From: a virus
Length of the DNA stretch: 54,644 nt
Reading direction: 5' to 3' (one strand)
Virus record (IMG/VR): IMGVR_UViG_3300031240_000010
Coordinates: 1-54,644 of that record
A model generated the notes under the pieces. It saw only the letters and a list, made by a program, of their open reading frames with translations. It made no database searches and had not been told where the DNA came from. Below are positions 27,857-40,661 of this stretch, in pieces. How positions within the stretch are numbered: the first letter of the stretch is position 1; the number at the start of each line of letters is the position of its first letter. A program made the translations under genes and the position numbers.

Positions 27857-28439
27857 TACTGTATGTACTGAACTCTATTACATGGTCATCATAAGTGTCT
27901 AGTAAATGCCATAACCATTCATAGCTATTAACATTCAAGTAACCCTTAAGTAATCGTAGGGCTGTTAATCCACTAACATTATGCCCACCCTCCTGTAAAG
28001 CAGCACGCATGGGTTTGACTATTGTGCTGTAGTACAACTCTAGCTTACCTTGCCTATGGATTACTTCACCTTGAAACAAGGTCTTTTCAGTTGGAGCCAT
28101 TAAACTGAAATAGCAATCCTCTGGTGCTATTAGTCCAGCCTTAGTTACCTCAAGATACTTCTTGTATACATCAACAGCAGGTATATCATACCATGTTGGC
28201 CCATTAGTTATTCTGTTACGTATGTGAGCAAGTATTACTGGACCTTTACCTGATAATGGGCTACCTCTAAGCCATGTATAGATATCAGGCCATGTAGGAA
28301 CACGGTTGCCAAAGACCCCATCAATATAGTCATTAACAAACTGCCTCTTATACATAATAGGTCTAGGTTCAATCTTTGGTAGGTTCCACATCGCCTTGGG
28401 CAACTGATGATTGGTGGTAGGGGTTATTAGCTTGGTCAT
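27795..28439 (-). CDS. Hypothetical protein overlapping the thymidylate synthase homologue
   Basis: 214 residues from the ATG at 28439, which has GGAAGG upstream; it overlaps the end of the thymidylate-synthase gene by 71 bases and its own end overlaps the zinc-finger gene. Sequence is mixed alpha/beta with Trp/Tyr-rich C-terminus ('YEWLWHLLDTYDDHVIEF'). 'TWYDIPAVDVYKKYLEVTKA' is a possible helical segment. No family recognised; the position suggests a nucleotide or DNA modification partner. Confidence 0.55.
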   Translation of the reverse strand: MTKLITPTTNHQLPKAMWNLPKIEPRPIMYKRQFVNDYIDGVFGNRVPTWPDIYTWLRGSPLSGKGPVILAHIRNRITNGPTWYDIPAVDVYKKYLEVTKAGLIAPEDCYFSLMAPTEKTLFQGEVIHRQGKLELYYSTIVKPMRAALQEGGHNVSGLTALRLLKGYLNVNSYEWLWHLLDTYDDHVIEFSTYSIECGMLKGFNTIYWEVRLGY

Positions 28440-29526
28440 TCTTAGCCTTCCAGTTCTGTTTCCTACGTTGAATCCAAGTAATGCCTGCATCACGCCAATC
28501 TTGTGCTAACACACGTTCCATCCATGAATAAGCAGCATCATAGTTACGTTCCTTATGTGCCTTAAATGCTCTACACATAGGTTCTGCTGTACCACTAAGG
28601 AATACATTATTCCACTTATGGACATCACTTGTAGCATTATCAATAAACTCTTTAACCTCTTTATCAAATGATTCAGCAAATCCAGAATAGGTTTGTAATA
28701 GCAAAGGAGGAGTTAGCACACCACCATTAACACTTTGATCCTCTACATTATCTGCATACTCAGTTTCACGTAAAGCACCTTGTAACCATTTCTCTGGGTG
28801 AAAGCCACTATTACTTTCTGTATAGATATGTAGGTTATTAGTAAAGTGATGTTGTAAACCTACCTCTACCCCTATACGGCAAGCCATGTACTCCAACAAG
28901 AAGCTAAAGTGACAACTGTTAGCTCCTAATAGTCCCCAGATCATATCATTAGATCTGTTAAGTACAGTCATATTTAACTTACCATCAACGATGTCAAAAT
29001 ACATCTGCGTGTTACATGGAACATCAAGCCCACCATTCATTGCTACTTCTAAGTCACCATGTAAGTCTGCTGCATCATCACTACTATTATCCTGAATACT
29101 ACTAGCATCCCACATAGCCACAACAACACGCCTACTAGTGGGGTTCTTACGTAGTTCTTCTACAGCCATATCTAGTTGATCATACATAAAATGCCTACGC
29201 CAGCGATAGCCGTAAGCACCATGCAGAACCTTACCATCATCACTGTACTTACGCATCTGTTCAGCATAGTAGGCAACAGGTTCTACATCACGTCTACCAG
29301 CTAACATCCAGAGACTTTCGTACATCAAAAAGAAGGGATTTATATCCCTCCCTACATTGAATAGCACTCGTTCCCTAGGGTTAGTGAAGGTAATGGTTAC
29401 AGGCTCAGGTATTCTTAGTACAGGTCCATTACGTGACTCAGACTTAACTGTAGGTATTCTACCTCTATGGATGTCTGCTACTAGTACACGGAAGGCTTGG
29501 TTTACAGACCTAAATGTTAGATGCAT
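28369..29526 (-). CDS. Thymidylate synthase family enzyme (TS or dUMP/dCMP hydroxymethylase)
   Basis: 385 residues. The catalytic Cys lies in 'GLDVPCNTQMYFDI', the substrate Arg-Ser-Asp pattern in 'MTVLNRSNDMIWGLLGANSC', and 'QHHFTNNLHIY' matches the C-terminal folate/nucleotide region. This divergent form (RSNDxxWGxxGANxxHFSxLxEY) is common in phages. It transfers a one-carbon unit to a pyrimidine nucleotide; whether it makes dTMP or a 5-hydroxymethylpyrimidine cannot be told by eye. The expected PCH is PCN. The gene for a HAD deoxynucleotidase follows upstream and overlaps by ten bases. The neighbourhood of DNA-modification genes at 37-41 kb favours a hydroxymethylase. Confidence 0.72.
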   Translation of the reverse strand: MHLTFRSVNQAFRVLVADIHRGRIPTVKSESRNGPVLRIPEPVTITFTNPRERVLFNVGRDINPFFLMYESLWMLAGRRDVEPVAYYAEQMRKYSDDGKVLHGAYGYRWRRHFMYDQLDMAVEELRKNPTSRRVVVAMWDASSIQDNSSDDAADLHGDLEVAMNGGLDVPCNTQMYFDIVDGKLNMTVLNRSNDMIWGLLGANSCHFSFLLEYMACRIGVEVGLQHHFTNNLHIYTESNSGFHPEKWLQGALRETEYADNVEDQSVNGGVLTPPLLLQTYSGFAESFDKEVKEFIDNATSDVHKWNNVFLSGTAEPMCRAFKAHKERNYDAAYSWMERVLAQDWRDAGITWIQRRKQNWKAKNDQANNPYHQSSVAQGDVEPTKD

Positions 29527-30110
29527 CTTTGTAACTCCTTAATAGCTAGTTCAATACCAGAACTAACATAACCAATGGGATCTTTGACATAGTAGTGAAA
29601 CTGATTACCTAGAGTGGGAAATGCTAATGCTCTACCTCCATTATCATAGAACTTTTGACAACTAGCACCATTATCATCAATCAATATAGTGTTAGGATTA
29701 GCCATGAGGTACTTATGCTTAGTAATCTCAAACCTTTCAAACTCTTGACCAAAGAATCTCTTTAGCCATTTATGCTTTCCTACATAACTAGAAGTACCTC
29801 TAATAGGACTAGTAACAATATACCAGTCATCGCTGTACTTGTCTAGTAAGGCTAAGAGTTCATGTGCATGGGGTAATAGTTGCAGACCTAGCCAGAATGA
29901 TTCACCTAGCTTATGTATAGGCTCATAGAAGTCATGCTCAGTAAAGTTATCAATACCTAATGCTAAACCCATAGGTCTAACTATACTCCACTCCCCTAGC
30001 TTCCTATGCTTATTCATCTCCTCTAGTGTAATGCCATGAGCTCTACAGGCACCACTATCAAAGTCAGTTATGCAACCATCTAGGTCACAAAGAATCCTAG
30101 GTTTAGACAC
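29517..30110 (-). CDS. HAD-family 5'(3')-deoxyribonucleotidase
   Basis: 197 residues from a GTG at 30110 with AGGAGGG upstream. HAD motif I 'ILCDLDGCITDFD' (both Asp), motif II 'WYIVTSPIRG', and motif IV 'NTILIDDNGASCQKFYDNGG' are intact. It dephosphorylates deoxynucleoside monophosphates, either to balance pools or to remove canonical nucleotides when a modified base is used. First gene of the leftward replication operon, downstream of an extended -10 promoter. Confidence 0.72.
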   Translation of the reverse strand: MSKPRILCDLDGCITDFDSGACRAHGITLEEMNKHRKLGEWSIVRPMGLALGIDNFTEHDFYEPIHKLGESFWLGLQLLPHAHELLALLDKYSDDWYIVTSPIRGTSSYVGKHKWLKRFFGQEFERFEITKHKYLMANPNTILIDDNGASCQKFYDNGGRALAFPTLGNQFHYYVKDPIGYVSSGIELAIKELQRCI

Positions 30111-30452
30111 AGCTACCCTCCTACTAGTTAAAGTGTATAGTCCAACACTTCATTATAACAAATGGCTAATTAAGCCTTAGTTGTATATTCAATGTTCTAA
30201 TAGGCCCCACCCCCTACCCCTGAGTTGTTAGGGGCCTACTGCTAGGGTACGCAATAGGGGGTATATTAGGTAGCTAATGGGTAGCTCAGGTAGGTAATAG
30301 GGTATTGCGTAACCTTACAAACTTGTAACCAAAATAGTAGGTAATACCCTATTGTATAACCGCTTGCCGGCCGTATTATGGTGTATAGCTGGTTTGGTTG
30401 TACGTGCCGTTTGTACCGTAGCCAAACTGGCCTAGCTACAAGGTGCACCACA
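30111..30452. promoter_or_regulatory. Divergent promoter and operator region
   Basis: No gene here. Leftward, TGTTATAAT (TATAAT at 30152-30157 on the minus strand) is an extended -10 box. Rightward, TTGTAT (30352-30357), 16 bases, TATTAT (30374-30379). Between them lie several inverted repeats: TAGGCCCC (30201-30208) with GGGGCCTA (30231-30238); TACGCAATA near 30247 with TATTGCGTA near 30303; and AATAGGGTATT near 30297 with AATACCCTATT near 30343. Short GGTAGCTAATGGG/GGTAGGTAATAGGG direct repeats are also present. It could hold operators, an origin, or both. Confidence 0.5.
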
Positions 30453-30935
30453 ATGCCCACTACCAATGCTGCCAAGCCCCTAAACAAAAAGCAGCAACGC
30501 CAAGCCGCACAGGCTGCTAAAGCCGCTGCTGCCGCACAACAGCCAGCGGCCACTACAACGCCCGTTGCCAGCCCTGCGGCTACCAGCACGGCACCGGCCT
30601 ACAACGGTGGTAAATGGGGCTGGGTGCGGCCTGCCCCTAAAACGGGTGCTAAGCAGCCTGTAGGCTTGTTGGTACTACAGGCACTAGTGGCCGCTGGTGC
30701 CACGGCTAACAACCCCCTGCCTGCCAAGCAAGTAGCCGCCCACATACCAGCGGGCAAGCATAGTCGGGCTGTTGTGGTACGCCACTATGCCTACCACTAT
30801 CTGCCGCTAGGCTTAACGGCCGTTACGGCACATGGCAACGGTGGTGCCGGCTATGGGTTTGCTATTACTGCCGCAGGCATTGCCCACCTTGCTAGCCTTG
30901 CTACCCCCAAGGTGGCCGCTACGCAAGCAGCCTAG
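30453..30935 (+). CDS. Winged-helix-like protein with Ala/Gln-rich tail (paralogue of 36233 protein)
   Basis: 160 residues from the ATG at 30453 (AAGGTG upstream; the frame is open further up but runs into the promoter). An N-terminal disordered Ala/Lys/Gln region (about 1-55) precedes a domain with 'QPVGLLVLQALVAAGATANN', 'LPAKQVAAHIPAG' and 'VVVRHYAYHYLPLGLTAVTA', ending 'GYGFAITAAGIAHLASL'. The pattern VRHYxYH...GL...xLTxxG is shared with the protein at 36233-36763. It looks like a helix-turn-helix with a wing. DNA is markedly GC-rich compared with neighbours. First gene after the divergent region and followed by a strong terminator; probably an abundant early DNA-binding protein. Confidence 0.6.
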   Translation: MPTTNAAKPLNKKQQRQAAQAAKAAAAAQQPAATTTPVASPAATSTAPAYNGGKWGWVRPAPKTGAKQPVGLLVLQALVAAGATANNPLPAKQVAAHIPAGKHSRAVVVRHYAYHYLPLGLTAVTAHGNGGAGYGFAITAAGIAHLASLATPKVAATQAA

Positions 30936-30990
30936 GTCACACAAGCAACCCCCTGTAGGCCGCAAGCTTGCAGGGGGCTTTTGTGTGACC
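30935..30990 (+). terminator. Strong terminator hairpin after the 30453 gene
   Basis: GGTCACACAA (from 30935) pairs with TTGTGTGACC (to 30990), and inside it CCCCCTG pairs with CAGGGGG. The long stem directly follows the stop codon. There is no long T tract after it, so it may act in both directions or stabilise the transcript. Confidence 0.65.
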
Positions 30991-31049
30991 TGGACTTTCA
31001 TTAGCTGACTAATGTTCAGCTTTCTGTACCTTTAGCATAGGGGGTAGGT

Positions 31050-31310
31050 ATGTTGAAACCAACAACTAAGAACTTGTTGTTGTGGTTTAGGCAGCGTAGG
31101 GAACTTAGTGGTGTACTGCCCAGGGGTGGGAAGTACAGAAAGACCTTTGCCAAGTTCCAAAACGATATAAGGCATGAATGGGGGACCCACATACTTGCTG
31201 CCCAGTATGATGATCCGTTTTGTGGTACTGATGTAGTGACCTACCACAACGATTACTACGCTGCAATGGAAGCAGCTTGGGAGACCAGAACTGAAAGTAG
31301 TAACCGCTAG
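31050..31310 (+). CDS. Small basic hypothetical protein
   Basis: 86 residues with GGGGGTAGG before the ATG. Arg/Lys-rich first half ('LWFRQRRELSGVLPRGGKYR'), then an aromatic second half ('YHNDYYAAMEAAWETR'). First of a run of small plus-strand genes. No family recognised. Confidence 0.55.
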   Translation: MLKPTTKNLLLWFRQRRELSGVLPRGGKYRKTFAKFQNDIRHEWGTHILAAQYDDPFCGTDVVTYHNDYYAAMEAAWETRTESSNR

Positions 31311-31347
31311 GCAGGGGGTAAGTAACAACCAAGATAAGGAGTTGACA

Positions 31348-31497
31348 ATGGCTAAACCAAAGCCTATTGACCATGACCAAGAACGTGCTGATTGGTTATG
31401 GGAACTATGGGAAAAGTATGAAGCACTGAATGTGCGGAGTAGTGGCATACCAAGCCTTGACCAAGAAATTATCACAATGTATGGACCCTGGAGGTAG
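31348..31497 (+). CDS. 49-residue microprotein
   Basis: Opens MAKPKPIDHDQERADW after AAGGAG and continues with a Trp-rich helix ('LWELWEKYEAL'), ending 'MYGPWR'. The stop lies two bases before the next ATG and its final codons provide the next gene's ribosome site. Likely a helical binding protein; function unknown. Confidence 0.5.
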   Translation: MAKPKPIDHDQERADWLWELWEKYEALNVRSSGIPSLDQEIITMYGPWR

Positions 31498-31499
31498 TG

Positions 31500-31676
31500 A
31501 TGTGCAAAGCTAAGAGTAGTGAAGTACCTGATTGGTGTATAGGGGTAGGGAAGTGTAAGGATTGTAAGGCACACATGAGACTCAACAAGTATGGGCGTTG
31601 TGAAGAGTGCCAAGTTGAACTCCAGGACCAAATTGAACAAGCAGAAGCTGATGCTGGCTGGGACCCTAAGCCTTAA
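31500..31676 (+). CDS. 58-residue zinc-ribbon microprotein
   Basis: GGAGG precedes the ATG. Two Cys pairs in 'KCKDCKAHMRLNKYGRCEEC' form a zinc ribbon; an acidic helix follows ('ELQDQIEQAEADAGW'). Possibly a regulator of host transcription or another protein; no family recognised. Confidence 0.5.
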   Translation: MCKAKSSEVPDWCIGVGKCKDCKAHMRLNKYGRCEECQVELQDQIEQAEADAGWDPKP

Positions 31677-31685
31677 GGAGTTATG

Positions 31686-31904
31686 ATGCGACCCACAACG
31701 AACAAACATAAAGACCCTGTATGGTGGACCTTGTTGGATTCACCTAACTACACGAACCTAGCAGCATTGCTACAGAGTATGGGGGTAGACCAAGAGCTGA
31801 TTCAAACCTACTTACATGACCCTAAGCGGAACATACCACAAAGCCTACAGAAACGGTTGAATGGGTGTGCTATGGGTCAACGGTTGATGGCTGGGATTCA
31901 CTAA
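31686..31904 (+). CDS. Small hypothetical protein
   Basis: 72 residues from the ATG at 31686; the ATG at 31683 is only two bases from AAGGAG. 'NLAALLQSMGVDQELIQTYL' is a likely helical core, followed by a short basic tail. No family recognised. Confidence 0.5.
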   Translation: MRPTTNKHKDPVWWTLLDSPNYTNLAALLQSMGVDQELIQTYLHDPKRNIPQSLQKRLNGCAMGQRLMAGIH

Positions 31905-31919
31905 CCACTGGAGGTAGTT

Positions 31920-32168
31920 ATGATTAAGAACAATTGCCCTATCTGTAATACTGAATACGTTTGGGACAGTGACCTGGAATGCTACAAAACAGTAGTACTA
32001 GGGGACCTTGCTGCTTTTAATCAGCCAATTGAAACTGAACCTGTGAAGGTCAATGGTAAGGAAATCACCTTACACCTTTGCCGTAGGTGTTCGGTTAATG
32101 GCGTTATTGCAATCAGTGTAGTGGACGGTGATGAGATCATCTATACACCTTCAACACAATCACTATAA
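31920..32168 (+). CDS. Small zinc-finger protein
   Basis: 82 residues with GGAGG upstream. Cys pairs 'CPICNTEYVWD' and 'HLCRRCSVNG' about 47 residues apart suggest a zinc-stabilised beta domain. No function assigned. Confidence 0.5.
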   Translation: MIKNNCPICNTEYVWDSDLECYKTVVLGDLAAFNQPIETEPVKVNGKEITLHLCRRCSVNGVIAISVVDGDEIIYTPSTQSL

Positions 32169-32200
32169 CTGATTACTAACCTTTAGATAAGGAGTTTATG

Positions 32201-32404
32201 ATGTACGCAAGCAAGAACTTCAAGACCAAGAAGCAGTTTAAGGAAGCAGTAGCAGCAGGGGAGCGGGTGACTCTATTTGCTCCAGGCTTAGGAACACCAG
32301 CTATGGATGGTAAGGAAACTGTGAGTGGACCACATTATCCTGCTCCACATACTTGGTACGCCACAGTTACAATGAAGGATGGAGTAGTCACTAAGGTCAG
32401 CTAA
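32201..32404 (+). CDS. Small hypothetical protein
   Basis: 67 residues from the ATG at 32201 (AAGGAG six bases upstream; the ATG at 32198 is too close). 'KNFKTKKQFKEAVAAGERVT' resembles a short helix followed by a beta hairpin seen in small phage proteins ('FkskkelkeaVaaGervtvF'). Ends in a beta-rich segment with 'HTWYATVTMKDGVVTKVS'. Confidence 0.55.
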   Translation: MYASKNFKTKKQFKEAVAAGERVTLFAPGLGTPAMDGKETVSGPHYPAPHTWYATVTMKDGVVTKVS

Positions 32405-32437
32405 CACCAATAAGAACCTTAACAGGATCACCACACT

Positions 32438-32653
32438 ATGAACCAATACTTTGTAATCTGGACCTACGTTGCCAACTATGGTGTGACTAAGATGGAGGGG
32501 GAGACCCCTGAAGCTGTGGCTAATGTCTTTATACACGGCTTCAGTGCTGACTTTAGGGAACGTGGTAAGGTCTACGTGTTTGATAAGGAACCTGTGTTTA
32601 TCTACAATAAGGGAGGTAAGGATTACAGGGAACACCTGTCTACACCAAAGTAA
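32438..32653 (+). CDS. Small hypothetical protein
   Basis: 71 residues with a weak ribosome site (AGGA). Alternating strands and aromatic residues ('YFVIWTYVANYG', 'RGKVYVFDKEPVFIYN') suggest a small beta-rich fold. A 5'-3' imperfect hairpin follows at about 32656-32704. No family recognised. Confidence 0.5.
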   Translation: MNQYFVIWTYVANYGVTKMEGETPEAVANVFIHGFSADFRERGKVYVFDKEPVFIYNKGGKDYREHLSTPK

Positions 32654-32655
32654 CT

Positions 32656-32704
32656 GATCAACCCTCCGCCCATCACATAGTGGTGGTCGGGGATGTTGAC
32701 CACT
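32656..32704 (+). other. Imperfect hairpin between small genes
   Basis: TGATCAAC-CCTCCG-CCCA pairs imperfectly with GTGG-TCGGGG-ATGTTGACCA around a CACATAGTG loop, directly after a stop codon and before a new ribosome site. It could be an attenuator or processing site; no T tract. Confidence 0.35.
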
Positions 32705-32721
32705 TAACAAAGGAGGTTGAT

Positions 32722-32922
32722 ATGGTAGATAAAGTGTATAACGTTTGGCGTAGGGATATTGCAGCAGAGTATGTGATCACAACTGGCCGGGCTTTTCCTT
32801 CAATGGGGACACCTAAAGGTGATCAACTTAGAAAACGCTTAGTAAGACTTTCTGATATGGACAATGTACCAACAGTAACGGAAACCCTTGTACTTATGAG
32901 AGTAGAAGGTTTGTTAGTTTGA
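32722..32922 (+). CDS. Small hypothetical protein
   Basis: 66 residues from the ATG at 32722 with GGAGG five bases upstream; an earlier in-frame ATG at 32680 lies in the hairpin. 'VYNVWRRDIAAEYVIT' and 'LRKRLVRLSDMDNVPTVTET' suggest an alpha/beta fold. No family recognised. Confidence 0.5.
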   Translation: MVDKVYNVWRRDIAAEYVITTGRAFPSMGTPKGDQLRKRLVRLSDMDNVPTVTETLVLMRVEGLLV

Positions 32923-32954
32923 ATAGTTGACCACTAGGCACCACAAGGAGTAGA

Positions 32955-33266
32955 ATGATGGTAAGTAATCCAAAGATTGTTGACTACAAACTTAAGGAAC
33001 GCTGCTTAACGGTTGAGCAGTTAATTGAGGAACTACAAGCTTTACCTGAACATGCCAAGAAGGCTTATGTTGTGTTTGGTTGTGACTATGGGGACCACTG
33101 CCATACAACTCAAGCACTACCTGTAGAAACCGTAAGAACACTTGATTATGGAACTGAAACTGTAATGGAATCAGCTTATAGCCACTCAGGGCTTAAGCTA
33201 GAAACTGAACATATACCAGAGGAGGAGGATGAATTTACACAGCTTCCCATAGTTGTGTTGGAGTAA
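32955..33266 (+). CDS. Conserved phage hypothetical (TVxxLIxxLxxLPxxA type)
   Basis: 103 residues; a second ATG three bases downstream has better spacing to AAGGAG. 'LTVEQLIEELQALPEHAKKA' and 'YVVFGCDYGDHCHTTQALPV' match a family of small phage and bacterial proteins that begin with an 'LxxLPpdaxVvv' helix-strand unit. Acidic C-terminus. Function unknown. Confidence 0.55.
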   Translation: MMVSNPKIVDYKLKERCLTVEQLIEELQALPEHAKKAYVVFGCDYGDHCHTTQALPVETVRTLDYGTETVMESAYSHSGLKLETEHIPEEEDEFTQLPIVVLE

Positions 33267-33273
33267 TCCAGGC

Positions 33274-33302
33274 TTGCATTGTGCTATAGGCTATGGTATA
33301 AC
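33274..33302 (+). promoter_or_regulatory. Sigma70-like promoter
   Basis: TTGCAT (33274-33279), 17-base spacer, TATAAC (33297-33302), in the gap before the 33349 gene. The -35 box is identical to that at 24003. Confidence 0.5.
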
Positions 33303-33348
33303 GTAGTTGTGTTGTGGGCACCAAGAACACTTACTTAAGGAGTTGATT

Positions 33349-33537
33349 ATGATAATACTATGTAAAGAGTTAGATGCTGAACTTGCACGTATTTGGTCTA
33401 GAATGCAGACTATTATTACTGAACGCCATATAGGTATTAATCAGATAGACTGTGATAGGTTATGTGTAGAAGAAATAGAACGCCTAACTTATAGGATGGA
33501 ATTAGACCAAGCAACTGTTAGACCTACTAAGAAATAG
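33349..33537 (+). CDS. Small helical hypothetical protein
   Basis: 62 residues from the ATG at 33349 with AAGGAG upstream. Predicted helical ('LCKELDAELARIWSRMQTII', 'LCVEEIERLTYRMELDQATV'). It has its own promoter. Followed by a GC-rich hairpin (about 33549-33594, GCCCACT...GTGGGGGC). No family recognised. Confidence 0.55.
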   Translation: MIILCKELDAELARIWSRMQTIITERHIGINQIDCDRLCVEEIERLTYRMELDQATVRPTKK

Positions 33538-33548
33538 GGTGTGGTGCC

Positions 33549-33594
33549 CACTCCCATCTAGTTGCTAGTTTGTTATTAGTGACTAGGTGGGGGC
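33549..33594 (+). terminator. Hairpin, possible terminator
   Basis: GCCCACTCCCATCTAGT pairs with ACTAGGTGGGGGC across a loop of about 15 bases, just after a stop codon. No T tract, so termination is uncertain; it may separate two transcription units. Confidence 0.4.
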
Positions 33595-33629
33595 TGTTCA
33601 CCAAGTTTTCCCTTATTAGGAGTTAGATG

Positions 33630-34271
33630 ATGAGCACCACAACTCAACACTGGTCATGCCAACTCGTGGAGCTTAAGGCTTGTAGAGAAGCCATGAGGTG
33701 GGTTCAGCAACAACCATCAGCCGAACAGGCTTGGCAATCATGTGAACGCGGAGATTGGATGTTATGGATTGCTGGTAGGTGTTCGGGTGAGGTAGGTAGT
33801 CCCAAACGAAAGTTACTGGGACTGGTCGCTTGTGGTTGTGCTCGCCTTGCACTCCCTTGCACAAAAGACAAGCAAGTGTTGAAGTGTATTGAAGTAACTG
33901 AAGCCTATTGCAAAGGAGACTTAGACGTTACTTTAGCAGACGTTAGAAAAGCACGGCAAGATGCTTATGCTGATGCTGATGCTTATGCTGCTGCTTATGC
34001 TGCTGCTGAGGCTGCTGCTGATGCTGCTGATACTGCTGATTATGCTGATGCTGCTTATGCTGCTGCCGCTGCTGCTTATGCTGCTGCTGATGCTGCTTAT
34101 GCTGCTGCTTACGCTGCTACTTATGCTGCTTATGCTACTTATGCTGCTGCTTATGCTACTTATGCTGCTGATTCTGCTGCTTATGCTGCTGATGCTGCTA
34201 AAATGGAGACTCTGCGTAAGTGTGCTGACATCGTCCGTACTTTCTATCCCAATCATCCGATTATCAAATAA
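33630..34271 (+). CDS. Ala/Tyr-repeat protein of a planctomycete-associated family
   Basis: 213 residues from the ATG at 33630 (GGAG seven bases upstream). The N-terminal half ('SAEQAWQSCERGDWMLWIAG' then 'LLGLVACGCARLALP') and the C-terminal 'MCADIVR'-type end ('LRKCADIVRTFYPNHP') match a family in which a long Ala-rich tract separates the two ends. Here residues ~115-192 are an imperfect repeat of Ala with Tyr or Asp every third or fourth residue, encoded by GCTGCTTAT/GCTGATGCT trinucleotide repeats. The family is common in Gemmata-like planctomycetes and some phages. The repeat probably forms a helical rod and is prone to length change. Function unknown. Confidence 0.6.
   Translation: MSTTTQHWSCQLVELKACREAMRWVQQQPSAEQAWQSCERGDWMLWIAGRCSGEVGSPKRKLLGLVACGCARLALPCTKDKQVLKCIEVTEAYCKGDLDVTLADVRKARQDAYADADAYAAAYAAAEAAADAADTADYADAAYAAAAAAYAAADAAYAAAYAATYAAYATYAAAYATYAADSAAYAADAAKMETLRKCADIVRTFYPNHPIIK
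33955..34200 (+). repeat. GCT/GAT/TAT trinucleotide repeat tract
   Basis: About 245 bases made of GCTGCT, GCTGAT and GCTTAT units, inside the Ala/Tyr-repeat gene. Open frames in all registers arise from the repeat (Met/Leu-rich and Ser/Ile-rich), but only the Ala/Tyr frame joins the flanking coding sequence. Slippage here would change length by whole codons. Confidence 0.8.
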
Positions 34272-34280
34272 GGAAGTGGT

Positions 34281-34472: not shown

Positions 34473-34514
34473 CCTCAATCCAGGCTTGCAGCCTGACTAC
34501 TAAGGAGCACCACA

Positions 34515-34805: not shown

Positions 34806-35019
34806 AATTAGGTTGATCAAAGGAACTTCAGAAGGAAATGAAGTAGTAAGTGAGTATGAATCTGATGCAGTACCAAGAAAATCTGAATGTATCCTACTAA
34901 AGAAGGATATACATGATACTCAAGAATTTGGGATTATGTATGTTAGGGATGTAAATCACGTGATTGATCCTTATGGTTTGGCACACATAGCAATCCTATT
35001 ATCAAAAGAGCCTGTATGA
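34798..35019 (+). CDS. Small hypothetical protein
   Basis: 73 residues with GGAG upstream, overlapping the genes on both sides. Beta-rich with basic patches ('MAKIRLIKGTSEGNEVVSEY', 'FGIMYVRDVNHVIDPYGLAH'). No family recognised. Confidence 0.5.
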   Translation: MAKIRLIKGTSEGNEVVSEYESDAVPRKSECILLKKDIHDTQEFGIMYVRDVNHVIDPYGLAHIAILLSKEPV

Positions 35020-35180
35020 CAGCCATATCAGGTAGACTACCTTGTGTAGCCATTGAGTATGATTGCAGGGGTGGTCGTGCCACTAAGGTATTTACAGATG
35101 TGAATGCCCACAAAGCACGAGCCTTTTGGACTAAGAAGTTTATTGCCGGCAAGAACCCAATCATTAAAGGAGTTAAGTGA
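35016..35180 (+). CDS. 54-residue basic microprotein
   Basis: The ATG overlaps the previous stop (ATGA) and the stop overlaps the next ATG (TGATG). 'RLPCVAIEYDCRGGRATKVF' then a basic helix ('AHKARAFWTKKFIAGKNP'). The frame uses the same codons as its neighbours and ends in a ribosome site for the next gene. Function unknown. Confidence 0.5.
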   Translation: MTAISGRLPCVAIEYDCRGGRATKVFTDVNAHKARAFWTKKFIAGKNPIIKGVK

Positions 35181-35776
35181 TGTACCAACGTGAACAAAAA
35201 CACCGTGACAATTGTGCTAAGATGCGTGACCTATTACTACAGGTTATTAAGGATGAGAACTTTAACTTTGGTAGTGTGATTAACGTAGATGACAGACTTT
35301 ATGACTTGTATAGAAAGGCACCATTAGAGACTAAGACTGATTACTACCATCTATACTCCCTTAGTGTAGAAAATAGCTTAATAGGATTAGTAGAACAGAA
35401 GCCAATGCTCCATAATTGTGGGACTACTGCTTGTGTGTTTGGCTATAGTCCGGGAGCACTACCAGAACTGATTTGGTCAGGTCAACATGTTGTTAGGAGA
35501 GATGGTGGTGATATAGACACAACAATGGATTACTTTGCCAAGGAACTATTAGGCCTCCATTGGTATTACTTTGAAGGTAGTGGTTGGGATATGAGCCGTG
35601 AAGTAACTAGGGAAGACTGTATTGCCATGCTCCACTACTTCACACAACCTAGGACTTACATCAACCCAATGGAAGATAGGAACTCAATACCTCTTACAGA
35701 ACGTCAAGTCAATGTGTTCCATAAGTATGCCAAGGAGACCCTGTATGCCAACCAAGAAGCCAAAGATCACAGCTAA
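35180..35776 (+). CDS. Hypothetical protein of a phage CGTxACxxG-type family
   Basis: 198 residues from the ATG at 35180 (AAAGGAG upstream). A helical N-terminus ('MRDLLLQVIKDENFNFG') precedes 'HNCGTTACVFGYSPGAL', a Cys-Gly-Thr-x-x-Cys motif found in conserved phage and planctomycete hypotheticals ('CGTvgCiaGwa'). The C-terminal part has 'EVTREDCIAMLHYF'. Largest protein of the small-gene block apart from the repeat protein. Function unknown. Confidence 0.55.
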   Translation: MYQREQKHRDNCAKMRDLLLQVIKDENFNFGSVINVDDRLYDLYRKAPLETKTDYYHLYSLSVENSLIGLVEQKPMLHNCGTTACVFGYSPGALPELIWSGQHVVRRDGGDIDTTMDYFAKELLGLHWYYFEGSGWDMSREVTREDCIAMLHYFTQPRTYINPMEDRNSIPLTERQVNVFHKYAKETLYANQEAKDHS

Positions 35777-35927
35777 GCAAGAAGGTGGAGATGATGGCTA
35801 CTGCTACGTGGTTAGAGTAGATGGTAGGGAGTACATCAATGGTCTAACCAAAGCTGAAGTTCCTTATTACAAAGCACAAGCCCTTAAACGATGGGAGGAA
35901 AAACATGCCCAAGCCAAAGAAGTGTAG
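35745..35927 (+). CDS. 60-residue hypothetical protein
   Basis: Starts at 35745 with AAGGAG eight bases upstream, inside the end of the preceding gene (32-base overlap). 'GDDGYCYVVRVDGREYINGL' is a beta hairpin and 'EVPYYKAQALKRWEEKHAQA' a helix. No family recognised. Confidence 0.5.
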   Translation: MPTKKPKITAKQEGGDDGYCYVVRVDGREYINGLTKAEVPYYKAQALKRWEEKHAQAKEV

Positions 35928-36102
35928 GTGTAGGGCACCTAAACGTCACAGGGATTGTATGTATTGTGGAACAGGGTGGGCAGGTGAAGTGATTTGTGGT
36001 AGGTGCAAAGAAGCAGGCATTGATGGTAAACTAATTCCAGGTACAGGACTTATTACCTGTATTCAACATAAGGTAAGAAAGGATGGTCTTAATACTAGAT
36101 AG
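35905..36102 (+). CDS. Small zinc-ribbon protein
   Basis: 65 residues with GGGAGG upstream; overlaps the previous gene by 23 bases. 'CRCRAPKRHRDCMYCG' and 'VICGRCKEAGIDG' hold at least five Cys, enough for one or two zinc sites, with a basic N-terminus. Probable nucleic-acid binder. Confidence 0.5.
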   Translation: MPKPKKCRCRAPKRHRDCMYCGTGWAGEVICGRCKEAGIDGKLIPGTGLITCIQHKVRKDGLNTR

Positions 36103-36140
36103 TGAGCTAAGGAACTCACATAAATAATTTCAATCTACAC

Positions 36141-36169
36141 TTGTTTAGGATTGAATCTAGTGCTACAAT
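36141..36169 (+). promoter_or_regulatory. Sigma70-like promoter for the 36233 gene
   Basis: TTGTTT (36141-36146), 17-base spacer, TACAAT (36164-36169). The leader that follows carries two small hairpins (GGGCAATAGCCC at about 36179-36190 and CCTAG-CCGAA-CTAGG at about 36200-36214) ahead of the AAGGAG ribosome site. Confidence 0.5.
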
Positions 36170-36232
36170 GTGGTTAGTGGGCAATAGCCCAAACGGACGC
36201 CTAGCCGAACTAGGTACTTGTTAAGGAGCGAT

Positions 36233-36763
36233 ATGATGCGAGTGTTCTACAACGAGGGTAGTGAAGGTGGTACTGCTGTTGCTGAAGCCCCCAAAGCTAA
36301 GGCTAAGAAGGTCAGTGCCAAACACCAGACCACCACGGTCGCAGGAGGTAGTGGCAAGTCAGTTAAGAAGGCAGTCAAGAAGAAAGCTGCCAAGCCTGAG
36401 GGTGAGAAGAAGGAGCGGAGTGGTCTGTATGGTATTGAACGTGAAAAGGACTTGCCTTGGAGCGACAAAAAGGTAAGCGTGTTCAAAGCCCTTAAGGCTC
36501 TGAAGTGCTTTGGTGTGGACAGTGCCAAGGGAGCGGCTGATGTTGCTGCTAAGATTGGTGGGGAGGCTGATGCAGCTTTGGTCCGCCACTACTCCTACCA
36601 TGCTAAGGCTGCTGGCCTTATCGAAGTGGTTAAGGGAGTTGAGGAGATTCGTGGTGTGGCTATCTACCTCACCAAGAAAGGTGCTGCCCTTGACCCTGTA
36701 GCCGAGTTCAAGAAGCAGGAAGCTGAGAAGGCTGCCAAGTCCAAGAAGAAAGACAAGGAATAG
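36233..36763 (+). CDS. Lys/Ala-rich winged-helix-like protein (paralogue of 30453 protein)
   Basis: 176 residues from the ATG at 36233 (AAGGAG upstream). A histone-like Lys/Ala region (about 20-70, 'KKAVKKKAAKPEGEKKE') precedes 'KVSVFKALKALKCFGVDSAK', 'GAADVAAKIGGEADAALVRH', 'YSYHAKAAGLIEVVKGVEEI' and 'AIYLTKKGAALDP'. The VRHYxYH...GL...LTxxG pattern and overall order match the 30453 protein. A second Lys-rich tail ends it. Own promoter and terminator suggest high expression. A role in phage DNA organisation or transcription control is inferred. Confidence 0.6.
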   Translation: MMRVFYNEGSEGGTAVAEAPKAKAKKVSAKHQTTTVAGGSGKSVKKAVKKKAAKPEGEKKERSGLYGIEREKDLPWSDKKVSVFKALKALKCFGVDSAKGAADVAAKIGGEADAALVRHYSYHAKAAGLIEVVKGVEEIRGVAIYLTKKGAALDPVAEFKKQEAEKAAKSKKKDKE

Positions 36764-36823
36764 TCACTCAGGGTCTTACCACCCAAGCTGAATACTTGAG
36801 TTAGAATACAATAGGTTAAGAAC

Positions 36824-36861
36824 AAGGACTTAGGGCATCGTGCTCTAGGTCCTTTTCTTTT
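36824..36861 (+). terminator. Rho-independent terminator of the plus-strand block
   Basis: AAGGACTTAGGGCA (36824-36837) pairs with TGCTCTAGGTCCTT (36841-36854) around TCG, followed by TTTTCTTTT. Ends the small-gene block before the convergent minus-strand operon. Confidence 0.85.
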
Positions 36862-37009
36862 AACTACGCCTAATGTTAAGCTAGGTAATATAGGTAATAT
36901 GGCTTTTAAGCCCCCTAGCTTGCGTTTTAACGCATTACAAGGTTTAGGGGTACTTTGGGGCCTTTACCTGCTAACTATGCGTTAGGCAGCGTTTTAAGGG
37001 GTCTGTAGC
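36862..37009. other. Convergent intergenic spacer
   Basis: Between the plus-strand terminator and the radical SAM stop. No gene. It contains short palindromes (GGCTTTTAAGCC, GCGTTTTAACGC) and words such as CGTTTTAAGGGG that recur in other GC-rich patches of the window. A CTGCCTAAC/GTTAGCAGG inverted repeat near 36970-36992 may terminate leftward transcripts. Confidence 0.4.
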
Positions 37010-37978
37010 CTATACCTTTTGCCAGTCCCTTAACACTGGCAAGGTGTAGGTCTTACCCGCTACTGCTTTGGCTATCACTGCCTCATCCCTAGGGCTAGGC
37101 AACGGTAAGCTATCATTGCCACGCTGGTCAGGTAAAAGTCCTGGTCTATAGCTCAAAGCATCACATCCCTTGCAGGCACCAAAGTCCCTTAGACCATGAT
37201 ACAGCTTTCTACGTGCTGCTTGGAACTCAGGGCCTTGCCAGATATCTACAATAGATTTATATTGTATATTACCACACTTATAAACTCCTGTCCAATCATT
37301 ACAACATAGAGCAATACTACCATCCCAACGTATGCTCATCTCACGGAATGGTTTAGCACAACGCTTACCTTGAGCAGAGTCATTAAGGGGAGCACCACAG
37401 CCACAATGATTGTTAAGACTACTATGAGTGCCTTTAGTGGCTTCACTAATGTCTTGTACAATCACTAGATCATGCTCACCTTCTGCCCTACGTTGATGAG
37501 GATTAGCCTGCTTATCCTTTGGATAATGCTTAGGCTTGAATACCCCAGTATACTTTTCTAGTATCTTAGGCACAATATTCACATTCTCATAAGCATCCAA
37601 GGCTAACACATTCAGGTTGATTAGCACACCATCAATCAGCTCTGTGGGTGACCTAAGGAAACCACCACCATTGCTAGTCATCATTAGGTGAGTCTTCTTA
37701 GGCAAACCCTTACGGAACAGGCTTACTATTTTGACTAAGTCAGGGTGTAGACTAGGTTCACCGTGCATAGCAAACTCAATACGACTATTCCACTTAGACT
37801 CCTTAATCTGCTCTATAAGTACCTTAGCTAAGTCTAGTGTCATAAACTTAAGGTCATTAGCCTTACCACGAATACCATTAAGTCCACAAAAGCTACAACG
37901 GAGGTTACAGCCCTCACAGAGCTCAACTTGTAGACAGAATGGTGGTGCTTGGACATACTGCTGAGTAATCTTAGGCAT
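37010..37978 (-). CDS. Radical SAM/SPASM-domain enzyme
   Basis: 322 residues from the ATG at 37978, opening MPKITQQYVQAPP. The radical SAM cluster motif CxxxCxxC is in 'CEGCNLRCSFCGLNGIRG'; 'IEFAMHGEPSLHPDLVKIVS' is the GE/ribose-binding strand and 'THLMMTSNGGGFL' the next. The C-terminus is SPASM-like: 'RCAKPFREMSIRWDGSIALC', 'CNDW', 'GNIQYKSIVDIWQGPEFQ', and 'GACKGCDA'. Such enzymes modify peptides, sugars or nucleotides by radical chemistry with S-adenosylmethionine. It is the last gene in an operon with two glycosyltransferases and an HMUDK_hel-like protein, which suggests action on a modified base or its sugar. Substrate unknown. Confidence 0.8.
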   Translation of the reverse strand: MPKITQQYVQAPPFCLQVELCEGCNLRCSFCGLNGIRGKANDLKFMTLDLAKVLIEQIKESKWNSRIEFAMHGEPSLHPDLVKIVSLFRKGLPKKTHLMMTSNGGGFLRSPTELIDGVLINLNVLALDAYENVNIVPKILEKYTGVFKPKHYPKDKQANPHQRRAEGEHDLVIVQDISEATKGTHSSLNNHCGCGAPLNDSAQGKRCAKPFREMSIRWDGSIALCCNDWTGVYKCGNIQYKSIVDIWQGPEFQAARRKLYHGLRDFGACKGCDALSYRPGLLPDQRGNDSLPLPSPRDEAVIAKAVAGKTYTLPVLRDWQKV

Positions 37979-37988
37979 ATCAAGTTCC

Positions 37989-38735
37989 CTATTTAATTGA
38001 CCTGTGTGCTCTAACCTTAGCCCATTTGCAACGTACTCGTGGGACACCATTCTTATCAAACTTGTGTGTAATCAGGTGAGGCCATAGCCGTTCTAACACT
38101 AACACTTGCTCCAAGCAGCTTTCCTTAGTACGCCAGATACTACAGCCACCCTTACGTTCAAAGTTACCTATGTCATCGTGGCAGTAGTTAGAAATCATAC
38201 TAACTGGTAGCTTATTCCACAATACCTGTAACACAAAGTCAATATCCTCATGACCTATAACACGGTCAAACCTTTCCTTACCTGTTAGCAGTGACTTGTT
38301 GATAGCAAATAGGTGGAGTAGTGGTCCTAGCTTAGTGTTAAAGGGCTTTTCCTTCATCTGTATCATAAACCTTTGTTCAACCCCTACCAAAGCATTCGTT
38401 TCCATTTGCTTGGTAATGAGCTTGAATAGGTCTGCTACGTCTACTGGTGTTGCTTTCTTAGTACCTGTATCAGTTACCTTATGGAACTTGATGTCATCAT
38501 CCAACATAATGGTCTGTGTATAGCCTGCTAACTGAGTAGCTAATACCTTTTCACGTTTCTCTGCTATATTCTTAGCTTCTACAATGATCCTAGGTAGTAC
38601 GTGGTCTAGCTTAGTATCATCACCCATAGTCTGGCAGAACCTAAACTTAACTCCTGCTGCTAATAGAGCCTGGGCTGTGAGTTGCATACTCATATCACGA
38701 CCACGAGTTAGTATCAATATTTCAGGCTTTAGCAT
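37989..38735 (-). CDS. TET-associated-type glycosyltransferase (GT-A, DNA modification)
   Basis: 248 residues from the ATG at 38735, which has GGAGG seven bases upstream. 'ILILTRGRDMSMQLTAQ' is the N-terminal strand; 'QTIMLDDDIKFHKV' holds the DDD metal/nucleotide site; 'RVIGHEDIDFVLQVLWNKLP' is the E-D-x-D-x-x-L-Q motif; and 'KGGCSIWRTKESCLEQVLVL' closes the domain. This order is that of the TAGT family, known from phage clusters that hypermodify DNA bases. It would add a sugar to a hydroxymethylated base in DNA. A TET/JBP oxygenase is not seen in the window, so the acceptor may come from the thymidylate-synthase-type enzyme instead. Confidence 0.72.
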   Translation of the reverse strand: MLKPEILILTRGRDMSMQLTAQALLAAGVKFRFCQTMGDDTKLDHVLPRIIVEAKNIAEKREKVLATQLAGYTQTIMLDDDIKFHKVTDTGTKKATPVDVADLFKLITKQMETNALVGVEQRFMIQMKEKPFNTKLGPLLHLFAINKSLLTGKERFDRVIGHEDIDFVLQVLWNKLPVSMISNYCHDDIGNFERKGGCSIWRTKESCLEQVLVLERLWPHLITHKFDKNGVPRVRCKWAKVRAHRSIK

Positions 38736-39723
38736 TAAGAACCTCCACAAACTGTTTGGCTATGAGTTTAGCATCATGCCTTGCTAGTAGTATATCACTA
38801 TTCTTAACCATTACATCTTGACCTTTAAGGGACTTCTTAAGTATAGCAGCTAATTCTTCACCATCACTAACAGCAAAGCAATTAACTCCTACCTTCATTT
38901 CATCACCAGGAATTAACCACTTACGGTTAATGATGTTGATACTACCTGCATCCATAGCCTCCATAAAGCTGTATTGAGTACCACCACCATCGCCCTTAAT
39001 CACACTCATATCAACTGCATAGGTTGCCTTATGGCAGATGCTAGTAGCTACCTCACGTTCCCTAGGATAAGCTGCCTTACTCTGCTCCCATTCAGGGTAA
39101 TTAGGACATATCTTAAACCTAGTGTATAGTCTATTCTCAAACCCATTTATCTGTATTTGCTTATCCTTGGGTAGTAAACGGTTAGCATCTAGTAGAATAT
39201 CTGTATGCTTATCAAAGTCTATACGGCTAATAGAACAGGCATTCAATTCACCAGTTGCTTTAGTCTTAGGCTTGAAGTGTCTATGGTAGGGGTGTAGGAC
39301 TAGGTGACTATCAGGTATCTGCTTTTGTACAGCCTTACGAATAGTGATGTATCTGTTACTATCACTCAGCTTTAGGTTAGCAAACTCCGCTGGGTCATGT
39401 ACAACCATCCAAGCACCATGTTCTAATAGTGCTTGTGCCTTTTCCCTAAAGTTCTTTTGTAGAGCTACTATAACTGAGTTACAGTTAGGATTATCAGGCA
39501 CCATTAAACCACCAGTTCTAACTATGTGCTCAGCATCTCCAAGGCATATATTCCTATACTCTTGGTCGTAACCAAACTGCCTACGCTTCATCTCAGACCT
39601 ATTACCAACCTTATAGAGTAACGGATTATAACCAGCTTGCTTTAGTCCATACATCAAATGTGCTGTGTAGGTCACCCAACCTCCTGTAGTATTACCACTA
39701 AGATAGAATAGGTTTATATTCAT
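38722..39723 (-). CDS. GT-B glycosyltransferase
   Basis: 333 residues. Opens 'MNINLFYLSGNTTGGWVTYT' with the Gly-rich N-terminal loop of GT-B enzymes; 'NACSISRIDFDKHTDILLDA' is the linker to the C-terminal Rossmann fold, and 'GGGTQYSFMEAMDAGSINII' matches the E-x-x-A-x-G nucleotide-sugar site (Glu in 'FMEAMDAG'). The retaining GT4-like pattern suggests transfer from UDP- or GDP-sugar. Overlaps the TAGT gene by 14 bases and the HMUDK_hel-like gene by four. DNA glycosylation is inferred from context; capsule or teichoic chemistry is less likely. Confidence 0.72.
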   Translation of the reverse strand: MNINLFYLSGNTTGGWVTYTAHLMYGLKQAGYNPLLYKVGNRSEMKRRQFGYDQEYRNICLGDAEHIVRTGGLMVPDNPNCNSVIVALQKNFREKAQALLEHGAWMVVHDPAEFANLKLSDSNRYITIRKAVQKQIPDSHLVLHPYHRHFKPKTKATGELNACSISRIDFDKHTDILLDANRLLPKDKQIQINGFENRLYTRFKICPNYPEWEQSKAAYPREREVATSICHKATYAVDMSVIKGDGGGTQYSFMEAMDAGSINIINRKWLIPGDEMKVGVNCFAVSDGEELAAILKKSLKGQDVMVKNSDILLARHDAKLIAKQFVEVLNAKA

Positions 39724-40661
39724 ACCCCTAAGTACCTCCTCTTAGATCTACCATTACCAAACAGAATATTATTCATCTTACCTGTTTCACACAAACAGTT
39801 CTGCATATCTTGTCCATGAATGTAAGGCCACTTGTATGAACCCCCACTTAAGTCAGTATTAACCCTAGCTACTAGATCAGTCAATTCAGCCTGCCATTGC
39901 TTACTGTTGATAGGTGTTTCTGGTGGTCTACTGTGTAGGTAATTCATACCCCTACGACTACCTGGACCTATACTTGCCCAATACTTTAGATCAGGTGCTT
40001 TGTCTAGTAAGTAGGTGTGGCGTAAGTCTGCTACCACTTGTCCTGCCATAAACCCTGAGCCACCTAATCCAGGCAATTCCATAAACATCTTATGGGCGGC
40101 AGCTAATGTGGGTCCATGTGACTTCCCTAACGAACCATGATCAAAGAAGCTAACTAGCTTCTCACGTTGTTCCCATACTGGTTGAATGTAGTCATCACAG
40201 ACCCTATCAATCTTAGGTTTACTACTCCCACTGTTGCTGATATTGAAGGCACCAGTAAATACTTGATTACCCTCATCTCTGTACCTACTCAATAGGTCTA
40301 CAACAGCATCTAATTTCCATCCAACAAAATACCCGAACGGACCATCCTTACCACTCATCAATCCACCACGAGTTTTTAGTAAGTGACCAGTAAGAGGCCA
40401 ATTGAACCACCTGAAAGCAATAGTTGCAAACAACACTTCAGATGTATTTCTTAGTGGTTCCCTAATGTTTTCCCTGAACCACACTGTAGTCTTATCTAGT
40501 TCCCTGTAGACATTAGTGAAGTATGTCTGCTGCATTAGTTCATTTTCACACCAAGGTTTAGGTCTACCTGCTGCCTTACGTCTGTATACAGCATGGCGTA
40601 ACTTAATCCACCACAATAGTCTGTCATAAGGTTCTAGTGCTTTAACTTCATCATTAGTCAT
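39720..40661 (-). CDS. HMUDK_hel / alpha-glutamyl-putrescinyl-thymine pyrophosphorylase-like protein
   Basis: 313 residues. 'LLWWIKLRHAVYRRKAAGRP', 'PWCENELMQQTYFTNVYREL', 'DKTTVWFRENIREPL', 'AFRWFNWPLTGHLL', 'NQVFTGAFNISNSG', 'LPGLGGSGFMAGQVVADLRH' (a helix-hairpin-helix) and 'YWASIGPGSRRGMNYL' follow the helical domain shared by 5-hydroxymethyluracil DNA kinases and the alpha-GPT pyrophosphorylase clade, which is related to DNA glycosylases. No P-loop is present, so it is not the kinase itself. Related proteins install or exchange groups on 5-hydroxymethyluracil in DNA. Translationally coupled (ATGA) to the DNA polymerase and the GT-B gene. Confidence 0.7.
   Translation of the reverse strand: MTNDEVKALEPYDRLLWWIKLRHAVYRRKAAGRPKPWCENELMQQTYFTNVYRELDKTTVWFRENIREPLRNTSEVLFATIAFRWFNWPLTGHLLKTRGGLMSGKDGPFGYFVGWKLDAVVDLLSRYRDEGNQVFTGAFNISNSGSSKPKIDRVCDDYIQPVWEQREKLVSFFDHGSLGKSHGPTLAAAHKMFMELPGLGGSGFMAGQVVADLRHTYLLDKAPDLKYWASIGPGSRRGMNYLHSRPPETPINSKQWQAELTDLVARVNTDLSGGSYKWPYIHGQDMQNCLCETGKMNNILFGNGRSKRRYLGV

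Follow-up and report, generated by a model that had tools for sequence, protein, structure and literature searches.

What does a phage do to its DNA when a protein of the 5-hydroxymethyluracil (5hmU) DNA kinase helical-domain family (HMUDK_hel) is encoded beside glycosyltransferases (GTs) instead of a kinase? The locus that raises this question lies in a window that is the entire IMG/VR record IMGVR_UViG_3300031240_000010 (54,644 nt), which may be incomplete since no exact terminal repeat was found anywhere in it. Our analyses make it probable, with no modified nucleoside measured, that the locus encodes a pathway for glycosylating 5hmU, with HMUDK_hel presenting the base and glycosyltransferases taking the place of the kinase.

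Organisation of the locus

The six module genes, from the thymidylate synthase (TS)-like enzyme to HMUDK_hel (Table 1), are open frames that lie where the original prediction had put them, and its observation of the module as a whole is confirmed. They are tightly packed, most with a Shine-Dalgarno-like stretch 5' of the start, and the HMUDK_hel gene does directly follow that of the DNA polymerase, with a 4-nt overlap (40658-40661); a polymerase gene is also near the module in most related contigs. The proposed start at 38735 for the TET-associated-type glycosyltransferase (TAGT) is retained, and ATG at 37978 is the most likely start of the radical SAM gene, over TTG at 38059. The conserved protein at the other end has no Pfam or PHROG match, and 42% homologues occur near TS in both of the loci listed for it.

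Table 1. Features of the module and its flanks in the 54,644-nt window
Feature	Position	Strand	Basis or remark
Conserved protein, unknown function	27795..28493	-	Adjoins TS gene in L006 and L012
TS-family enzyme, proposed dUMP 5-hydroxymethylase	28369..29526	-	PF00303 5e-21
HAD 5'(3')-deoxyribonucleotidase-like protein	29517..30110	-	PHROG 2643, 1.2e-11; proposed dTMP removal
Radical SAM/SPASM enzyme, proposed sugar-editing step	37010..37978	-	PF04055 + PF13186
TAGT (GT-A) glycosyltransferase, proposed second sugar	37989..38735	-	PF20691 1.5e-7
GT-B glycosyltransferase (333 aa), proposed to add the first sugar to 5hmU in DNA	38722..39723	-	Predicted fold
HMUDK_hel protein (313 aa), proposed subunit for recognising 5hmU-DNA and presenting the base	39720..40661	-	PF18723
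Family A DNA polymerase (PolA)	40658..42682	-	PF00476 6.8e-31; same operon

Probable identity of the modified base

A TS-family enzyme and a HAD deoxynucleotidase had been proposed at 28-30 kb. The first assignment stands: besides its Pfam match, the protein matches PHROG 5131 (3e-105), is 39-43% identical to homologues in YuA, RHph_TM26 (Rhizobium), Sonora and Pam3, and, judged by sequence, groups with the dUMP hydroxymethylases of YuA-type phages. The second stands in part, as the HAD protein has its PHROG match but falls under the Pfam NT5C cut-off (14.5 versus 24.8 bits); its homologue adjoins the TS gene in L012.

In the PDB, the TS-like enzyme best matches the CMP 5-hydroxymethylase MilA (4e-16), every TS ranking below it, and TAGT, PHROG 842 and T4 AGT are linked to hydroxymethylcytosine, all of which would suit a base that is 5-hydroxymethylcytosine glycosylated in the manner of T4. 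We nevertheless consider this quite improbable. Cys171 is present in all readable sequences and Asn203 in 94 of the 95, and Asn203 aligns at the base-reading site with the Asn of TS and, in MilA, with the Asp expected of a cytosine-type hydroxymethylase. This conservation of Asn203 argues for uracil rather than cytosine as the base; moreover, YuA-type enzymes are the closest checked relatives of the TS-like enzyme, and HMUDK_hel is a family of 5hmU systems.

HMUDK_hel as a putative base-presenting subunit

The 313-aa protein, originally described as HMUDK_hel/alpha-GPT pyrophosphorylase-like, falls well inside the HMUDK_hel family (PF18723, 1.1e-35; 123.8 bits against a curated cut-off of 25), with residues 12-295 matching positions 4-270 of the 281 in the profile, but the pyrophosphorylase part of that description is better replaced by a partner domain of a base-modifying enzyme. 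In Foldseek its predicted model (pLDDT 93.7) matches only phage HMUDK_hel/5-hmdU kinase proteins, no solved relative of the fold being found, and a PDB sequence search gave nothing useful. A single-protein scan of viral data also found no relatives, for which an alignment-based scan was needed. In 62 sequences, R22, F48, N50, R53, D56, F204, G232, G234, G238, C291, E292 and K295 are invariant, and they are retained next to kinases, GTs and methyltransferases alike, which suits a base-presenting role shared by all. Net charge does not mark HMUDK_hel out as the DNA-binding partner. In Bacillus phage SBSphiC, it is fused to a kinase domain bearing a P-loop; a natural HMUDK_hel-GT fusion was not found among the fetched loci, where the only fusion is to a kinase.

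HMUDK_hel could instead be catalytic itself and form a separate 5hmU adduct (for example phosphoryl, pyrophosphoryl or aminoacyl), on which the GTs would act in place of the hydroxymethyl. Its model does weakly resemble that of an amino-acid:DNA transferase (1e-3), relatives carry a pyrophosphorylase annotation, and the invariant polar residues N50, R53, D56, C291, E292 and K295 could be catalytic. Yet their constancy beside such different enzymes, and the fact that the domain fused to HMUDK_hel in SBSphiC is a P-loop-bearing kinase, make a catalytic HMUDK_hel unlikely in our view, and a presenting role remains the one we infer.

Glycosyltransferases and the radical SAM enzyme

The 333-aa product of the gene next to HMUDK_hel matched no family in Pfam, PHROGs or NCBIfam and nothing useful in a PDB sequence search, so that its designation as GT-B, invisible to sequence families, is supported by a confident model (pLDDT 90, pTM 0.90). 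Foldseek matched this model to retaining GT4-like enzymes, including T4 AGT (1xv5, 2.3e-9, TM 0.65 by query length; 1y8z, 1.5e-8), and on the strength of the predicted fold it is a retaining GT-B enzyme. Because many other GT4-like enzymes are matched too, the fold can be called AGT-like but membership of the AGT family is not established. T4 AGT itself glucosylates DNA without a helper protein, a point against the pathway favoured here. The 48 viral relatives found mostly adjoin HMUDK_hel and TS genes or TET/JBP genes, the latter in L029, L032-L038, L042-L044, L046, L048, L050 and L051. Two queries against 50,697 cultured phage records retrieved no relative, nor did a scan of genome contigs (103 pattern matches), and the host can therefore not be named.

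For TAGT, the TET-associated-type assignment holds, its PF20691 score being barely above the cut-off (32.0 versus 27.5 bits). The protein also matches PHROG 842 (5e-12), has a DDD motif (ORF residues 84-86) invariant in 12 sequences and a conserved HEDID-type motif, and is 51% identical to the TAGT of L012; a PDB sequence search gave nothing useful. The radical SAM/SPASM assignment is equally upheld by matches above cut-off to PF04055 (1.6e-9) and the SPASM family PF13186 (2.8e-12) and by its cysteines, C51/C55/C58 (CX3CX2C) being invariant and C234, C252, C253, C296 and C299 nearly so in 18 sequences. BtrN is its top PDB match (3.8e-10), and NCBIfam gave it no name, all scores lying far under the cut-offs.

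Absence of kinase, amino-acid transferase and TET/JBP

The original prediction had noted the lack of a 5hmU kinase and of a TET/JBP oxygenase, and neither was found in the record. By curated models, the kinase (PF18748) is absent from the window and from all 36 GT-type records searched (kinase controls, 5/5), the amino-acid:DNA transferase ADDT (PF18724) from the window and 24 records (controls, 3/3), and TET/JBP (PF12851) from 23 module records including the possibly incomplete window (controls, 4/4). P-loop proteins of the window are helicase/recombinase-like.

Radical SAM enzymes are reportedly used in M6-type hypermodification, and a gene could be missing from an incomplete record; one might hence envisage a pathway of the M6 type whose kinase is non-homologous or comes from the host, and in which 5hmU is phosphorylated and receives an amino acid before glycosylation and radical SAM editing. 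Such a pathway is very doubtful given that the kinase and ADDT models are negative here and in other GT-type records while positive in the controls, that the P-loop proteins are of other types, and that the radical SAM enzyme is unrelated to that of YuA by BLAST.

HMUDK_hel partners across phages

Of 84 HMUDK_hel clusters, 45 have a GT as neighbour, 20 a kinase and only 2 both (Fisher p=3.5e-7); clusters of the HMUDK_hel-led scan alone gave 26, 15 and 2, respectively (p=5e-4), with no recognised partner in 9 of 59. These p-values overstate independence, as the partner label is partly inherited and many of the records are fragments. The two types differ further in content: amino-acid transferases near HMUDK_hel occur only with kinases, SPASM radical SAM genes occur in 17/45 GT clusters and 0/22 with kinases, and GT-B or TAGT was found in none of 17 kinase-type records. 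A TAGT-led scan returned HMUDK_hel with a TS-like gene in 37 of 41 loci and a kinase, ADDT or TET in none, and the HMUDK_hel and TAGT set is also present in the cultured Brevibacterium phage LuckyBarnes, which has HMUDK_hel, two TAGTs and a TS-like gene but no kinase. A combination initially thought not obviously described thus recurs in many uncultured phages and in LuckyBarnes, and part of it had already been noted in PMC9599517.

GT-B folds are common to LPS, teichoic-acid and polysaccharide enzymes, and action of these GTs on DNA has not been demonstrated; they and the radical SAM enzyme might act on glycans of the host surface or on proteins and adjoin PolA by chance. This we judge highly improbable, for in 31 of the 45 GT clusters no more than 50 nt separate HMUDK_hel from a GT (the median gap is -3 nt), and the second context of the GT-B family is beside TET/JBP oxygenases, in one case (L038) with a radical SAM homologue nearby (4e-51). 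Placement of the GTs in capsule/LPS families, which would have refuted the original prediction, did not occur, their companions being HMUDK_hel/TS or TET/JBP genes and not those for capsule or LPS; nor did the other sequence-based refutation, a 313-residue protein outside the HMUDK_hel clade.

Comparison with known systems

The M6/YuA, ViI and phiW-14 hypermodification systems share with the window a TS-like dUMP hydroxymethylase, HMUDK_hel and the PolA neighbourhood, but they have the kinase and ADDT where it has glycosyltransferases and a different radical SAM enzyme. TET/JBP-linked TAGT systems share TAGT and the same GT-B family, whereas the window has HMUDK_hel and no TET/JBP, the hydroxymethyl being attributed to the TS-like enzyme. 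Glucosyl-5hmC DNA of the T4 type resembles the proposed pathway in its pre-replication hydroxymethylated nucleotide, addition of sugar in DNA and AGT-like GT-B fold; it differs from the window, which has a uracil-type hydroxymethylase (Asn203), HMUDK_hel and a radical SAM step. Trypanosome base J is an O-glycosyl-5hmU, as the predicted product would be; the window lacks a JBP-type oxygenase, and hydroxymethylation would come before, not after, replication.

As of 2019, no glucosylated 5hmU had been reported in phages (PMC6449724). In 2022, TS, aGPT-PPlase1 and a 'beta-glucosyl-HMC-alpha-glucosyltransferase' were noted together in HTVC023P-type pelagiphages (PMC9599517), the same three families near PolA and in the same layout as in our TAGT-led contigs; in the parts of that paper concerned, the set is read as M6-like, possibly broadened by the glucosyltransferase, and GT-B, radical SAM and a kinase-for-GT swap are not described. 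Yersinia phage YerA41, whose thymidine carries an oligosaccharide-like group of ~1 kDa (PMC9023294), offers a similar sugar-like substituent but was rejected as a cultured precedent: models for HMUDK_hel, TS-like enzyme, TAGT and GT-B were all negative, which points to another route.

Proposed pathway and implications

The earlier reading, a sugar-bearing DNA hypermodification system, is supported by families, folds and partner data, with its chemical product untested. In the pathway that we favour, the TS-like enzyme would form 5-hydroxymethyl-dUMP and the HAD nucleotidase would clear competing dTMP; the triphosphate would come from host or phage kinases, and PolA of the phage would use it to substitute 5hmU for T in DNA, partly or completely. 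After replication, HMUDK_hel would bind the DNA and present 5hmU to GT-B, which would move a sugar from a host nucleotide-sugar onto the 5-hydroxymethyl oxygen to yield a base resembling base J; TAGT would then attach a second sugar, and the radical SAM/SPASM enzyme oxidise, epimerise or otherwise edit the sugar. Substrate, order of steps, role of HMUDK_hel, identity of the sugar and the radical SAM reaction are inferences, whereas gene families, predicted folds or motifs, the lack of any match to kinase, ADDT or TET in the record, and the recurrence and near-exclusivity of partners are observed.

More tentatively, HMUDK_hel may be, rather than part of a kinase, a general 5hmU-DNA presenting module, a plug-in platform with interchangeable partners: a kinase and then amino acids, GT-A or several GT-B enzymes (base-J-like sugars) and then SPASM editing, or a methyltransferase. 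Glycosylated 5hmU would then be common among uncultured phages. If the favoured pathway is right, base-J-like glycosylated 5-hydroxymethyluracil would be widespread in phage DNA and would arise with no JBP/TET oxygenase. Most of the relatives sampled, having a GT neighbour, would then be poorly served by their Pfam name, '5-hmdU DNA kinase, helical domain', and a family of unknown fold would gain a testable role. Such phages would also be a source of enzymes adding new sugars to T in DNA, and in LuckyBarnes there is a cultured phage where the predicted chemistry is directly readable.

Gene content of the window

The window, at 54,644 bases, spans the entire IMG/VR record of a phage. Apart from the 333-residue protein, on which both were silent, Pfam and PHROGs upheld the module families named in the original prediction.

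Window genes of the putative hypermodification module
Product	Position	Strand	Setting	Recognised by (Pfam and PHROGs taken together)
Family A DNA polymerase	40658-42682	minus	operon with HMUDK_hel, GT-B, TAGT and radical SAM/SPASM	Pfam, PHROGs
HMUDK_hel	39720-40661	minus	polymerase operon	Pfam, PHROGs
333-residue protein, GT-B	38722-39723	minus	polymerase operon	structure model only
TAGT	37989-38735	minus	polymerase operon	Pfam, PHROGs
Radical SAM/SPASM enzyme	37010-37978	minus	polymerase operon	Pfam, PHROGs
HAD nucleotidase	29517-30110	minus	about 7-9 kb further downstream of operon	PHROGs (under the Pfam cut-off)
TS-family enzyme	28369-29526	minus	about 7-9 kb further downstream of operon	Pfam, PHROGs

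Portal, head-morphogenesis and Sak4-type proteins are also encoded, as are a protein with a long Tyr/Ala/Asp/Thr repeat (33627-34271; coding repeats of 9-12 nt, 17 copies in register) and a pair of Ala/Lys-rich proteins that resemble each other towards the C-terminus (30378-30935 and 36218-36763; VVRHYAYH and LVRHYSYH). In the related viral locus L006, a protein like this pair (6812-7183) is encoded on the opposite strand immediately beyond the radical SAM gene, and PolA is broken across two frames (1863-3822; frameshift or assembly error possible).

The 5hmU-DNA kinase (PF18748) was detected in none of the 36 records whose HMUDK_hel has a glycosyltransferase partner (GT-type; window, LuckyBarnes and Carostasia included), amino-acid:DNA transferase (ADDT, PF18724) in none of 24 GT-type records (controls 3/3) and TET/JBP (PF12851) in none of 23 records (controls 4/4). 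All five kinase-record controls matched PF18748, four of them under the family cut-off, so that this profile is barely sensitive enough for distant kinase members; a kinase alignment built here agreed with it, giving three weak matches in 35 records, in the P-loop region only. The window's P-loop proteins are helicase- or recombinase-like, and none is a small kinase. These searches agree with the predicted lack of TET/JBP and of a P-loop 5hmU kinase in the window.

The probable modified base and its proposed glycosylation

The TS-like enzyme shares 39-43% identity with homologues of YuA (annotated as putative deoxyuridylate hydroxymethyltransferase), Rhizobium RHph_TM26, Sonora and Pam3. Its best solved relative, above all true TS, is the CMP hydroxymethylase MilA, but Asn203 aligns with the base-reading Asn of TS, where MilA has Asp. 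Asn at this position, which discriminates TS from dCMP hydroxymethylases, denotes uracil, and its retention in 94 of 95 readable sequences makes 5-hydroxymethyl-dUMP the likely product, as judged from sequence and with no chemistry measured. The sole exception, Microbacterium phage Carostasia (L135:5204-6019), has Asp there, together with HMUDK_hel and TAGT, and possibly carries a cytosine version of the pathway.

The 333-residue protein gave a confident model (pLDDT 90) with a GT-B fold of the retaining, GT4-like kind, and PDB matches including T4 DNA alpha-glucosyltransferase and its complexes with HMU-containing DNA, bearing out the original GT-B call. Its conserved stretches, SRIDFDK and GDGGGTQYxFxEA, resemble GT4 phosphate- and sugar-binding segments. 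Among the 48 viral loci from a scan with the family alignment (best matches kept), the closer ones have HMUDK_hel and TS alongside, PolA usually near and no kinase, and most of the remoter loci have a TET/JBP oxygenase next to GT-B. That one family occurs with two routes to a 5-hydroxymethylpyrimidine is a strong argument for the modified base being its substrate. In one TET-context locus (L038), a SPASM radical SAM protein homologous to the window's (32% identity, 4e-51) lies near GT-B, and by BLAST the YuA radical SAM protein is unrelated to the window's; from this we infer that the sugar is the substrate of the latter. Among solved structures, the one closest to the window enzyme is BtrN, a dehydrogenase of an aminocyclitol alcohol.

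Distant GT-B members also occur at L053 and at L052 (8046-11050); the L052 member has a ParB-like gene and a radical SAM protein beside it, and neither TET nor HMUDK_hel. An FkbM-type methyltransferase, which possibly methylates the sugar, lies near HMUDK_hel and a GT-B glycosyltransferase at L009-L011, L028, L049 and L119. The 263-residue product of a gene between GT-B and TAGT (L012:10995-11786) had no Pfam or NCBIfam match; its N-terminus and size suggest, by eye, a sulfotransferase-like protein.

Partner exchange and the role of HMUDK_hel

Scans retained best matches with 5-10 kb flanks, many records being fragments; that with the HMUDK_hel alignment found 568 relatives, the closest 80 of which were kept. 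Over the full set of loci, 116 HMUDK_hel loci fell into 84 clusters (90% identity), partnered by a glycosyltransferase alone (45), a kinase alone (20), both types (2; such loci are L092 and L120), methyltransferase MT1 (7) or none (10). ADDT accompanied 11/22 kinase and 0/45 GT clusters, and radical SAM 0/22 and 17/45, respectively. For the HMUDK_hel-led scan alone, counts were GT 26, kinase 15, both 2, MT1 7 and none 9 (p=5e-4; partner p-values take no account of shared ancestry). GT-B and TAGT of these families were absent from kinase-type records, and a third scan, which used a TAGT from L115 as query, returned 41 loci, of which 37 carry both HMUDK_hel and TS and the other four TS; kinase, ADDT and TET were absent from all of them. 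In a phylogeny of 83 HMUDK_hel proteins, the distribution of the kinase label requires 10 changes, at least six forced by well-supported branches, and the supported clade of the window protein has GT-B, TAGT and a further GT family as partners; exchange of partners has therefore taken place repeatedly.

At L063, L067, L094, L097, L099, L107 and L108, a class I methyltransferase (Methyltransf_23) adjoins HMUDK_hel on the upstream side. These loci, with HMUDK_hel and TS-like enzyme and without kinase or GT, form a single clade (99); the partner suggests that 5hmU is O-methylated or carries a methyl group in some other way. At L062 (4078-5807), from a viral record of 463 kb, the neighbour of HMUDK_hel is an inosine-uridine nucleoside hydrolase (PF01156, 2e-12); TS is not nearby, and this HMUDK_hel clade holds six more clusters without recognised partner.

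5hmU-derived hypermodification was already known, as were TAGT and DNA glycosylation. A pelagiphage report (PMC9599517) describes TS, aGPT-PPlase1 (an older name for the HMUDK_hel family), nucleotidase and glucosyltransferase together, a set that its authors thought might broaden the M6 system. In the literature covered, which excludes the main primary papers, the replacement of kinase by glycosyltransferase and its recurrence appear new, as do the unannotated GT-B family that also occurs in TET systems and the radical SAM enzyme linked with it. In SP-15 (PMC5977210) the glucose sits on another uracil side chain, and the oligosaccharide-like group on YerA41 thymidine (PMC9023294) is made by other genes.

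In Bacillus phage SBSphiC, kinase PF18748 (35-193) and HMUDK_hel (312-597) form a single 636-residue protein, and the SP10 '5-hmdU DNA kinase' of UniProt likewise has the HMUDK_hel fold. Invariant HMUDK_hel residues are identical across kinase, GT and methyltransferase partners, and the gap to the partner is at most 50 nt in 13/22 kinase and 31/45 GT clusters (medians +1 and -3 nt). No solved relative of the fold was found; the model's weak likeness to that of an amino-acid:DNA transferase leaves room for catalysis by HMUDK_hel itself. The simplest reading, which is inferred as a whole, is that HMUDK_hel is a 5hmU-DNA-binding, base-presenting module with a swappable catalytic partner.
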